Shown here in pieces: positions 28,380 through 32,705 of a DNA stretch of 32,705 nt. A model generated the notes under the pieces. It had not been told where the DNA came from. It searched no databases and worked only from the letters and a program-made list of their open reading frames with translations. A program made the translations under genes and the position numbers. The stretch's first letter is position 1; each line of letters begins with the position of its first letter. The stretch spans positions 1 through 32,705 of the forward strand of contig JACPPF010000173.1 of NCBI GenBank assembly GCA_016191165.1, in the 5' to 3' direction. This stretch comes from Planctomycetota bacterium (GTDB taxonomy: Bacteria > Planctomycetota > Planctomycetia > Gemmatales > Gemmataceae).

Positions 28380-28462
28380 CAAGCCCCGGGGTGAGCGCAG
28401 CGAACCCCGGGGATCGCCGCGTGCAATATCCCAGAGGTTCGCTGCGCTCACCCCTGGGCTTG
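28380..28462. repeat. Long inverted repeat between atpD and atpC
   Basis: Left arm 28380-28406 and right arm 28436-28462 match at 26 of 27 positions around a 29-base centre; a smaller hairpin CCCCGGGGT/ACCCCGGGG lies inside the left part. The right arm's TTCGCTGCGCTC recurs at 9132-9160. A transcript would fold into a very stable hairpin 12 bases before the atpC start. Confidence 0.8.
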
Positions 28463-28966: not shown

Positions 28967-30376
28967 ATGGCCTTTCAACTCAAATGCACCCACTGCGGCG
29001 CCACTCTCAAGACCGGCAGCAAGATCGCTCCTGGCAAAAAGGTCAAGTGTCCCAAATGCGCCAAGCTCTTCACCGTGGAGCCTGACGAGGACGAAGAGGC
29101 CGTGACCGAGACCGAGGAATTTGCGCCGCCGCAGAACGACAGCACGGATGAGGACGAGGCGCCAAAAACCAAGAAGTCCGCGAAGGTCCGCGACGAAGAG
29201 GAAGACGAAGACGAAAAGCCCAAGAGCAAGCGGCCCGCGAAGGCTCGTGACGACGAAGATGAAGAGGACGAAGACGAAAAGCCCAAGAGCAAGCGGCCCG
29301 CGAAGGCTCGTGACGACGAAGATGAAGAGGACGAAGACGAAAAGCCCAAGAGCAAACGGTCCGCGAAGGCTCGTGATGACGACGATGAAGACGACGACGC
29401 ACCCAAAAAAAAGGGGAAGGACCGCTCCGACGATGACAAACCCAAGAAGAAAACCGGCATGATCGTCGGCATCGTGCTCGGAGTCCTGCTCCTGTGTTGC
29501 TGCTTGCCCACCGGCGGCGCTGGTTGGTTCTTCTGGAGCGCCATTTCCAAGTTCCTGGGTTTTGTCGATGCCGTCCAGACGAACATCAAGAAAATGGAGG
29601 ACAAGCGGAAAACCAAGGACGGCGCGAAGGCAATCGACACGAAACCGGCCTTCACCCGCACCGCGCTCGCCATGACTCAGGAATTTCTCGACAACGAAAA
29701 GAACGCCACCGCCAAGTACCAGGACAGGCTCGTCGAAGTCACGGGCGAAATTTGGGACGTGACCCCTAACAAGGGGTTCACCCTCAAAGGCGCGAAAAAG
29801 GACGCCAAGGACGCACTGGGCATCTCCCTCGTTTGTGACGTTCGGCCCTCGGAATTGAACAAGGTCGCGGGACTTGCCAACGGTAACAACGTCCGAGTGG
29901 TCGGCAAGGTTACACGGGTCATCGGCATTGCGGTGCAACTTTCCGATTGCACGCTGACCGAGCTGGCGCCAAAAGAAAAGGTCAAACCGCCGCCGGTGAA
30001 ATTGCAGAAGGTCCACATCATCATCGACTCGCGTTACGCAAAAACGGCGATCTCCCGGTTTGAGATTTTTGGACCGCCCGGGCTTAAACAATACCAAGGC
30101 GCCTATCAACTCCAGGAAGTAGCAGTGGTTCAAGGTTCGCCACCGCCAAACGGGCCGTGTTATCTCCTCAGCTATATCGCACGCGGGGGTGGCGGGGACA
30201 TCAGTAGCGGTGGCGACACAACCCGGGGCACCTTTTTCACAGCTCAACTTCCACCACGAAGCACCTTGACGAATCTAAAAACGATTGGAACGTTCCAGGC
30301 CAAGATGATCGGAGTCGGCAGTTCAGGTCTCCGAATCGAATATACCCTCGTGGAAGCCACCCTGCAAAGTCCCTGA
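28967..30376 (+). CDS. MJ0042 zinc-ribbon membrane protein with tRNA_anti-like outer domain
   Basis: A 469-residue protein in four parts. Residues 1-40 form an MJ0042-type zinc ribbon, CTHCGATLKTGSKIAPGK then CPKC (CxxC pairs). Residues 45-165 are acidic/basic low complexity with three 21-residue repeats (KPKSKRPAKARDDEDEEDED). A transmembrane helix follows at about residues 165-190 (TGMIVGIVLGVLLLCCCLPT, then WFF). The C-terminal region, about 225-330, resembles the tRNA_anti-like OB-fold (YQDRLVEVTGEIWDV and LANGNNVRVVGKVTRVI). A zinc ribbon inside the cell and an OB-like domain outside suggest a membrane linker; the task is unknown. Three smaller paralogues follow in the same direction. 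Confidence 0.8.
   Translation: MAFQLKCTHCGATLKTGSKIAPGKKVKCPKCAKLFTVEPDEDEEAVTETEEFAPPQNDSTDEDEAPKTKKSAKVRDEEEDEDEKPKSKRPAKARDDEDEEDEDEKPKSKRPAKARDDEDEEDEDEKPKSKRSAKARDDDDEDDDAPKKKGKDRSDDDKPKKKTGMIVGIVLGVLLLCCCLPTGGAGWFFWSAISKFLGFVDAVQTNIKKMEDKRKTKDGAKAIDTKPAFTRTALAMTQEFLDNEKNATAKYQDRLVEVTGEIWDVTPNKGFTLKGAKKDAKDALGISLVCDVRPSELNKVAGLANGNNVRVVGKVTRVIGIAVQLSDCTLTELAPKEKVKPPPVKLQKVHIIIDSRYAKTAISRFEIFGPPGLKQYQGAYQLQEVAVVQGSPPPNGPCYLLSYIARGGGGDISSGGDTTRGTFFTAQLPPRSTLTNLKTIGTFQAKMIGVGSSGLRIEYTLVEATLQSP
29216..29395 (+). repeat. 63-bp tandem repeat within the first MJ0042 gene
   Basis: Units start at 29216, 29279 and 29342. The first two are identical at all 63 positions; the third is diverged and partial. 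A still more diverged unit precedes them at about 29171-29215. Each full unit encodes 21 residues, KPKSKRPAKA followed by RDDEDEEDEDE. Confidence 0.9.
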
Positions 30377-31132: not shown

Positions 31133-31483
31133 ATGAGCCATTCCATCAAATGTCTGCATTGCATGGCCGTGTTGAAATCGCCGGTTCCGGTGCCGGCCGG
31201 CAAGAAGGTGAAGTGTCCGAAGTGTCAGCAGTCGTTCATCACGCTGGCCGCCCCGGCGCCCGCGCCGCCGCCGCAACCGGTTGTTCCGGTCCAGCAGGCG
31301 GCCACTCCGGCACCGGCGCAGGGATTGAACATCAGTATTTTCACGGGCGACGCCGACCTTGCCATCGCCCACTTGATGAGTGAGCCAGGCGCCGCGCCCC
31401 CAACCGGCCTCGACGATGATCTTGTGACCGAGGAAGACGAGATCGAATCCAAAAAGAATCAGGACGGGGGCAAACGCAAGTAA
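31133..31483 (+). CDS. MJ0042 zinc-ribbon protein (third paralogue)
   Basis: A 116-residue protein with the ribbon CLHCMAVLKSPVPVPAGK then CPKC, followed by a Pro/Ala-rich stretch and an acidic tail ending NQDGGKRK. Unlike the first two it has no transmembrane helix. It starts 17 bases after the previous stop. The ribbon's DNA shares a 26-base identical stretch with the fourth gene (GGCAAGAAGGTGAAGTG onwards), which shows recent duplication. Its last 27 bases, including the stop, recur 188 bases downstream (31645-31671). Confidence 0.78.
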   Translation: MSHSIKCLHCMAVLKSPVPVPAGKKVKCPKCQQSFITLAAPAPAPPPQPVVPVQQAATPAPAQGLNISIFTGDADLAIAHLMSEPGAAPPTGLDDDLVTEEDEIESKKNQDGGKRK

Positions 31484-31510
31484 GGACAACCACCGATACC
31501 AGTTCCGGCT

Positions 31511-31642
31511 CTCGTTCCCAGGCTCTGCCTGGGAACGCACGATGTTGCAGGCTCTGCCTGCCGGACCCGAAATCGCTTCCGCGGCTGGGCGCGAGGCAGA
31601 GCCTCGCGAGTAGGGCGTTCCCAGGCGGAGCCTGGGAACGAG
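31511..31642. repeat. Compound palindromic cassette, CGTTCCCAGGC type
   Basis: The two ends are hairpins of the form CGTTCCCAGGC/GCCTGGGAACG (31511-31538 and 31615-31642) which also pair with each other. Between them lie two more palindromes: GCAGGCTCTGCCTGC (31547-31561) and GCGAGGCAGAGCCTCGC (31591-31607). No reading frame of note. The cassette lies between the third and fourth paralogues. Confidence 0.8.
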
Positions 31643-31644
31643 GA

Positions 31645-31671
31645 AATCAGGACAGGGGCAAGCGCAAGTAA
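31645..31671 (+). repeat. Duplicate of the third paralogue's last 27 bases
   Basis: AATCAGGACAGGGGCAAGCG followed by CAAGTAA matches the end of the previous gene (31457-31483) at 25 of 27 positions, including the stop codon. The palindromic cassette lies between the two copies. This looks like the remnant 3' end of another paralogue, or a duplication that flanks an insertion. Confidence 0.85.
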
Positions 31672-31696
31672 GCGTCAAACGATCAGACGAGCAAGC

Positions 31697-32705
31697 ATGA
31701 GCGACAAGCCAACGAAACCGCAACCGAGTTTTGCCATCAAGTGCGTTCACTGCGGCGCGGTGTTGAAATCGCCGGTGGCGGTGCCTGCGGGCAAGAAGGT
31801 GAAGTGTCCGAAGTGCAAGGAGACCTTCACGACGGGCCCGGCCGCGCCGAAGAAGACGAAACTGGCCGACGAGCCGCCCGAGCCGAAGCCCGCGCCGGCG
31901 GCGCATGATGACTTCGGCGACGACGAGATGGCCGCCGCGATTGCCAAGCTGGCGGGCGATTCCTCCCCCGCGCCGGCGCCCGAACCGAAGGCCGAGGAAA
32001 AGCCCGCGCCGCCCCCGGCAACTGCCGATGAAGAAGAAGACGAGATGGCCGCCGCCATCGCCAAGCTCGAAGCCGAGCAATCGCCGACCAAGAAGCCCGA
32101 ACCAGCGCCCGCGCCCGCGCCGGCGCCGATTCCCGACATGGAGATTCCGGAAATCGACGACGATCTCGTCGTCCCCGATGACGATGAACCGGAAGCCAAG
32201 AGCAAACCCAAAAAAAACAAGCCTCAAAGCAAGCCCCTGCCCGCCAAATCGAAAAAGCGTCGCGATGACGAGGACGATGAGGACGTCGAAGAACCGCGAG
32301 CCAATAAAAAGAAACGCGATGACGAGGACGATGAGGACAACGACGAGCCGCGGTCCAAAAAGCGCAATCGCGACGACGAAGACGATGAGGACACGCCGCG
32401 CCCAAAGAAAAAAGCTCGCGATGATGACGACGAGGACGACAAGCCACGCGCAAAAAAGAAACCCGCTGATGACGACGAGGACGACGACGACAAGCCGCGC
32501 GCGAAAAAGAAACCCGCTGATGACGACGAGGATGACGACGACAAGCCACGCGCGAAAAAGAAACCCGCGGATGACGACGAGGATGACGACGACAAGCCAC
32601 GCGCGAAAAAGAAACCCGCGGATGACGACGAGGATGACGACGACAAGCCACGCGCGAAAAAGAAACCCGCTGATGACGACGAGGATGACGACGACAAGCC
32701 ACGCG
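31697..32705 (+). CDS. MJ0042 zinc-ribbon protein with long charged tail (fourth paralogue, 3' partial)
   Basis: ATG 31697 (MSDKPTKPQPSFAIKCVHCG) starts a frame that is open to the right edge, 336 codons and no stop. The ribbon CVHCGAVLKSPVAVPAGK then CPKC is followed by a Pro/Ala-rich section with two copies of DEMAAAIAKL (about residues 75 and 115), an acidic patch (EIPEIDDDLVVPDDDEPEAK), and then a Lys/Arg and Asp/Glu block repeat that becomes a 17-residue tandem repeat (KPRAKKKPADDDEDDDD). By comparison with the first paralogue a membrane helix may follow beyond the window. Such alternating basic/acidic blocks are likely disordered. Confidence 0.8.
   Translation, partial: MSDKPTKPQPSFAIKCVHCGAVLKSPVAVPAGKKVKCPKCKETFTTGPAAPKKTKLADEPPEPKPAPAAHDDFGDDEMAAAIAKLAGDSSPAPAPEPKAEEKPAPPPATADEEEDEMAAAIAKLEAEQSPTKKPEPAPAPAPAPIPDMEIPEIDDDLVVPDDDEPEAKSKPKKNKPQSKPLPAKSKKRRDDEDDEDVEEPRANKKKRDDEDDEDNDEPRSKKRNRDDEDDEDTPRPKKKARDDDDEDDKPRAKKKPADDDEDDDDKPRAKKKPADDDEDDDDKPRAKKKPADDDEDDDDKPRAKKKPADDDEDDDDKPRAKKKPADDDEDDDDKPR
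32441..32705 (+). repeat. 51-bp tandem repeat at the right edge
   Basis: Units start at 32441, 32492, 32543, 32594, 32645 and 32696, the last cut by the window. The units at 32543 and 32594 are identical; the others differ at a few third positions. Each encodes 17 residues, KPRAKKKPADDDEDDDD, in the fourth MJ0042 gene. Confidence 0.92.

Follow-up and report, generated by a model that had tools for sequence, protein, structure and literature searches.

A dispersed, REP/BIME-like palindromic element probably entered the short spacer between the third and fourth genes (g3 and g4) of a planctomycete zinc-ribbon gene cluster, in an insertion event that copied the last 28 bases of g3 through a sporadic template switch or break repair. 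We assign this account a probability of about 64%. The sequence between the two gene tails is repeated elsewhere in the genome, and each of its conserved ends meets the inner edge of a tail. In a genome of the same genus (G001), the orthologous spacer is empty, and the repeat family does not habitually duplicate its target site. The arrangement therefore looks like the fossil of a chance rearrangement and not like the relic of a lost gene.

The stretch of DNA analysed here (the window, 32,705 nucleotides) is contig 160 of a 7.2-Mb genome, labelled G000, whose assembly consists of 183 contigs. Its last 10 kb hold ATP synthase genes of the alpha/beta and delta/epsilon families, followed by four zinc-ribbon-like genes. 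N-terminal CxxC..CPKC motifs can be read from the ORF translations of all four genes, and their Pfam zinc-ribbon matches all stay below the cut-off (for g3, for example, Zn_ribbon_4 at E=0.0059). The first gene of the cluster, g1 (28967-30376), joins its zinc-ribbon-like start to a tRNA_anti-like domain, which scores above the Pfam cut-off (PF12869, E=1.3e-10). In g4, a 51-bp tandem coding repeat, rich in Asp and Lys, occupies 32302-32705. The contig stops within this repeat, which probably caused the break. The features of the g3-g4 region are listed in Table 1; g3 and g4 are separated by 213 bases in the window.

Table 1. Features of the g3-g4 region, in window coordinates.
Feature	Position	Strand	Basis
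g3, third zinc-ribbon paralogue, last 27 bases duplicated	31133..31483	+	ORF; sub-threshold Pfam; G001 ortholog
First tail copy, g3 coding end plus one base	31457..31484	+	sequence comparison
Inserted palindromic element	31485..31644	+	ends common to the C42, C72, C165 and C78 copies
Element 5' arm	31485..31510	+	common to four other G000 loci, with divergence
Hairpin 1 (CGTTCCCAGGC-TCT-GCCTGGGAACG)	31513..31537	+	aligned copies
Hairpin 2	31546..31562	+	aligned copies
Hairpin 3 (GCGAGGC-AGA-GCCTCGC)	31591..31607	+	aligned copies
Hairpin 4, inverse of hairpin 1	31616..31640	+	aligned copies
Second tail copy, non-coding	31645..31672	+	sequence comparison
Leftover spacer 5' of g4, taken as the ancestral g3-g4 spacer	31673..31696	+	25 nt from second TAA to g4 ATG; compare 39 nt in G001
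g4, fourth zinc-ribbon paralogue, runs off the contig end	31697..32704	+	ORF; sub-threshold Pfam

The original prediction held that the last 27 bases of g3, including the stop codon TAA, recur downstream with two differences. This is confirmed: the two tail copies are identical at 26 of 28 bases and flank the cassette of four hairpins. The repeat is one base longer than the 27 bases first noticed, because the G after TAA is common to both copies. In 30 first-order Markov resamples of the window, two 28-mers agreeing at 26 or more positions never occurred within 500 bp of each other. The window itself contains nine such pairs; apart from the tail pair, all are internal repeats of the g1 and g4 coding sequences. 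Meanwhile, the flank score of the window (22) exceeds those of all 870 mismatched flank pairs and is double their maximum (11). When R was set at the two variable positions and up to three mismatches were allowed, the tail 28-mer was found at these two places only in G000 and at none in six other genomes of the same genus. Fixation of the arrangement in distant relatives, which had been expected to speak for a functional element, is thus not seen in these six genomes. The absence carries little weight, as the tail has diverged so far that it is unrecognisable even in G001. The second tail copy probably plays no role in g3.

The hairpin cassette had been placed at 31511-31642. Its four hairpins stand, while its extent does not: the left end lies at 31481-31485, and four other loci share the 5' arm. 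DNA matches to the window element begin at 31485 (C42), 31481 (C72) or 31482 (C165), and end at 31646 (C42, C72 and C78) or 31645 (C165). The left edge is uncertain between 31481 and 31485, as TAAG is common to both sides, and the right edge between 31644 and 31646, where AA is common. Since the comparison of copies moves both ends of the cassette, the element fills the gap between the two tails, save the ambiguous TAAG on the left and AA on the right. The segment 31485-31510, formerly regarded as spacer, is element sequence. At the right end, GAGGAAA is present in all five arm-bearing copies. The C42 and C72 copies alone carry a further 3' arm, inverted relative to the 5' arm; the window element, of about 160 bp with four hairpins, lacks the 3' arm of these two related copies. 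Its best core match among the compared copies is 93%, and the C42 and C72 copies are 95.5% identical to each other in the core.

The element belongs to a family of repeats. A 24-base palindrome occurs 51 times in G000 with up to two mismatches, and 31 palindrome clusters with up to five mismatches were read. From these clusters, we chose 13 complete copies for alignment, and in all 13 hairpins 1 and 4 are inverse copies of each other. The four-hairpin form has standard pairs in 94.4% of the 468 pair cells of this alignment. The alternative of a single long hairpin reaches 84.0%, yet for the window copy it gives the lowest energy. Beyond G000, DNA matches to the element are present in 7/7 genomes of the genus, and 14 of the 95 genomes from the family to which the window belongs, its own among them, carry the palindrome with at most one mismatch. 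The exact palindrome was found in one of 199 genomes, the window's own, in a phylum-wide sample holding no other genome of that family. A pattern scan of named genomes matched at least 113 stretches; among the 80 matches listed, we notice planctomycetes, cyanobacteria, Desulfobacterota and single metagenome bins of other phyla. Judged by this sequence distribution, the palindrome is a patchy, widespread and mobile-looking repeat. No published description of the family was found in the literature text searched with its sequence, where the papers among the matches listed dealt with other topics.

We considered the gene context of the arm-bearing copies only. TAA stands immediately 5' of the element at four of the five arm-bearing loci, and at two of them, L021 (C42) and g3 of the window, the TAA at the left border is the stop codon of a long open frame (484 and 140 codons, respectively). 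TAA before the element is possibly a target preference. On the other side of the family's behaviour, local tandem duplications with breakpoints at or inside an element are observed in G000 on C165, C78 (two places), C14 and C126. Their sizes are about 122-123, 72, 57 and 53 bp (L024 on C78, L023 on C165, L035 on C126, L039 on C78 and L032 on C14). Because of these duplications, the elements seem prone to slips, and the observation suggests that palindromic elements provoke local duplication.

G001 is the only genome found to carry both the g3 and g4 neighbours. Its g3 ortholog shares 60% identity with g3 over residues 4-105 (49% in another alignment). The G001 spacer, from the stop of the g3 ortholog to the ATG of the g4 ortholog, is 39 nt long (G001:C44:7750-7788) and contains no palindrome, second tail or fifth gene. 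In the window, the stop of the second tail lies 25 nt before the g4 ATG, compact like the G001 spacer. Given the empty 39 nt of G001 and the 25 nt after the second stop, the ancestral state suggested by the sequences is most likely g3, a short spacer and g4, and the duplication most likely came with the element. As G001 is a single and distant genome (49-60% amino-acid identity in g3), it demonstrates the compact arrangement and not the exact pre-insertion sequence. In two other genomes, G006 and G002, one g3/g4-like gene takes the place of the two of G000 and G001, leaving no g3-g4 spacer for comparison, and the compared stretches of G003 and G005 hold one g3-like gene and no atpC. Different hairpins are located between the first and second ribbon genes of the same cluster in G006 (L104, on C137) and downstream of the g3/g4-like gene in G002 (L107, on C120). 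With hairpins in other spacers and one gene in place of g3 and g4 in these two genomes, both the hairpins and the paralogues of the cluster seem to turn over.

One of the two origins first proposed for the arrangement was entry of the cassette through a recombination that copied the gene end. Our findings support this idea: the cassette is a dispersed repeat, its ends abut the tails, and the orthologous spacer of G001 is empty. The mechanism is most likely a one-off event, either a template switch in two steps or repair at a staggered break, using microhomologies of 2-4 bp. In this account, synthesis would have left the g3 tail at TAAG, which the g3 stop has in common with the C72 and C78 copies at their left border. 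It would then have copied an element present elsewhere, up to GAGGAAA, and would finally have rejoined the original template 28 bp upstream, at the AA shared with AATCAGG. The microhomology, directly visible at the junctions, does not exceed 4 bp at the left one and 2 bp at the right one. In the confirmed spontaneous rearrangements in Salmonella described in PMC3411829, the junction homology is longer than 10 bp. The shorter homology of the window junctions argues somewhat against a template switch.

The first alternative is true transposition. In this view, the element is a non-autonomous transposon whose putative transposase makes cuts with a long stagger, and the 28-mer is a genuine target-site duplication, decayed by now at most other copies. 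We consider it unlikely, although several features agree with it. The outer ends of the element are inverted, and the window duplication directly abuts the element ends. Like a MITE, the element has terminal inverted repeats (49-nt arms, 82% complementary) and folds as one long hairpin. Imperfect flank repeats at L303 (G005), L269 (G057) and L274 (G031) are the best candidate parallels to the window duplication.

The flanks of other copies speak for the most part against transposition. By ungapped scoring, a flanking direct repeat was found in the window only, among 30 G000 clusters, and at none of the other 29; the 31st cluster (L032), which is at a contig end, was excluded. The same scoring was applied to 151 of 156 clusters from named genomes and to 67 clusters from 60 stretches of relatives, one of which had no cluster. 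Gapped scoring covered three sets of 14, 37 and 50 two-palindrome elements, 90 loci after removal of duplicates between sets. Flank repeats at p<0.01 were found in 1/14, 3/37 and 4/50 elements, or 8 of the 90 deduplicated loci. Against a same-locus null, which covered 89 loci, seven reached p<0.01 where 0.9 were expected; the window, L269 and L274 are among the seven, and L303 lies at p = 0.015. The excess favors transposition, but the repeat lengths are not constant, and the fixed-length target-site duplication of a MITE is found neither in the G000 clusters (1/30) nor in this mixed sample (7/89). The inverted-flank control is also in excess (6/90, and 5/89 under the same-locus null), which means that the flank test is not clean. 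At 21 of the 90 loci, a 14-mer of the flanks recurs at another locus, and the L269 repeat is itself hairpin-like.

Near-identical copies point in the same direction. Twelve two-palindrome copies match some other copy at 95% identity or more. A flank repeat at p<0.01 is seen in one of these twelve, whose flank has 14-mers in common with the flanks of other loci. The twelve may not all be independent, as two lie in the stretch L299, and L302 and L306 may be orthologous. The C42 and C72 copies, the two closest full-length copies, have no flank duplication in spite of their similarity. We thus reject regular target-site duplication as a rule of the family, given the single case among 30 G000 clusters and the young copies that mostly lack flank repeats. 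Given the slight surplus of imperfect direct repeats, insertion may now and again duplicate the target. A more specific version, in which the family inserts by a copy-in reaction and occasionally duplicates 20-30 bp of target, with the window as the best preserved case and L303, L269 and L274 as decayed ones, appears rather improbable to us. If true, it would point to an undescribed way of moving REP-like DNA.

Another possibility divides the history into two events. The element would have inserted cleanly after the g3 stop, and later an unequal exchange, between one copy of the locus with the element and one without it (from sister or incoming DNA), would have joined the right end of the element to the start of the tail. 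The TAA found directly 5' of most arm-bearing copies, with its long open frames at the window and C42, agrees with such a clean insertion, and tandem duplications of element pieces do occur in G000. However, two alleles would have had to be present together, two events are required, and the intermediate has left no independent trace. We regard this sequence of events as quite improbable, and return to a single insertion that copied the gene end as the preferred reading.

The other origin first proposed, a fifth paralogue of which a deletion left the tail alone, finds no support. In this scenario, a tandem copy of g3 once stood between g3 and g4 and lost all but its last 27 bases as the element came in. 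The duplicated piece is indeed a gene end with its stop, and the cluster does expand and contract, with one g3/g4-like gene in G006 and G002 versus two in G000 and G001. Yet G001, with both neighbours in place, has no fifth gene between them. Homology between the tails ends at the element end, and the element makes up the whole interval, including the 5' arm formerly counted as spacer; the deletion would need to end exactly at the conserved end of the element. We consider a lost paralogue very improbable. A duplicated gene end beside a palindrome, as a caution, need not be the relic of a lost gene. An artefact of the fragmented assembly, suggested by its many contigs and by the end of the window contig inside the 51-bp tandem repeat, is hardly credible, as the tails differ at two positions, the element differs from all compared copies, and neither junction resembles a collapse of identical sequence, the right one sharing 2 bp only.

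REP-like palindromes are common. In our view, the route by which they reach new sites is unsettled, and a copy with clear ends, a flank duplication and an empty orthologous site offers a concrete junction for testing insertion models. A hypothetical model for REP entry is outlined in PMC2817692. We call the present element a REP-like palindromic element: it works like a REP/BIME-type element, and it is not a member of the named REP superfamilies. We do not place it there because the GTAG/CGTC tag and a linked RAYT were both looked for and not found. On the side of likeness, it is a short palindrome in many copies, as the counts in G000 demonstrate, and two inverted palindromes form a unit in the 13 aligned copies, which had been chosen as complete. 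On the side of difference, no GTAG or CGTC tag occurs in the conserved columns of these 13 copies, for which the core was compared. The palindrome was found beside none of the 11 Y1_Tnp genes of G000 within about 1.5 kb on each side (less at contig ends), where the best match has six mismatches. The two Y1_Tnp genes that do lie on palindrome-bearing contigs are separated from it by about 3.1 kb on C147 and 5.8 kb on C14. In G000, the one genome checked, no transposase was found beside the palindrome. Mobilisation of this palindrome by a local RAYT is therefore rejected, none of the 11 Y1_Tnp genes being next to it.

Several described systems share part of this architecture. PMC2817692 reports four rayt gene 3' ends captured between the REPs of an adjacent BIME. 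That case is similar in its inverted hairpin repeats and in a gene tail copied along with palindromes; here, in contrast, the gene encodes a zinc ribbon, there is one element with the copied tail outside it, and the 11 Y1 loci have no palindrome. PMC3116915 describes tandem REPIN clusters whose repeated unit includes flanking DNA. REPINs resemble the element as units of two inverted palindromes and as tandem units that include the flank, whereas the present unit is longer, has two more inner hairpins, consists of one element and one extra flank piece without an array, and has no linked RAYT that we could find. According to PMC3733652, GTAG- and CGTC-tagged REPs also occur in planctomycetes and cyanobacteria, often near the 3' ends of ORFs. 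These are likewise palindromic repeats of both groups, but no conserved tag is visible in our 13 aligned copies. PMC11708052 deals with insertion sequences whose movement lies at the centre of duplications, and proposes that they enter breaks already present. A mobile sequence between two copies of a duplicated segment is common to both cases, while the duplication there is large and the insertion sequence has its own transposase.

An array in a Desulfococcaceae genome (L184:7001-7557) is also reminiscent of BIMEs. In this array, the same palindromic element as in the window (E) alternates with a 73-bp hairpin-bearing unit f in the order f-E-f-E-f, and a further copy of f lies nearby. This array and the f-E-f units at L145 and L177 were dropped as parallels to the window, as f is itself hairpin-like and, at L184, has that further copy.

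A functional RNA is without support. The Rfam search returned no match above the gathering score, and the two microRNA models and one snoRNA model that matched were all far below their cut-offs. The fold of the element is very stable (z = -10.5 as RNA and -8.9 as DNA), as expected of a palindrome. Covariation is not informative: both sides have changed in one of the 36 pairs of the four-hairpin form, a number that 213 of 500 shuffles also attain, and in none of the 36 pairs of the long hairpin. The hairpins may possibly act in transcript termination or in the protection of mRNA 3' ends.

The window holds a second strong palindrome, unrelated to the element, between atpD and atpC (28380-28462; 35-nt arms, 91% complementary). 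The GTG start of the longest atpC ORF lies inside this palindrome. The Pfam match begins at residue 32, so the true start of atpC is probably located further downstream.
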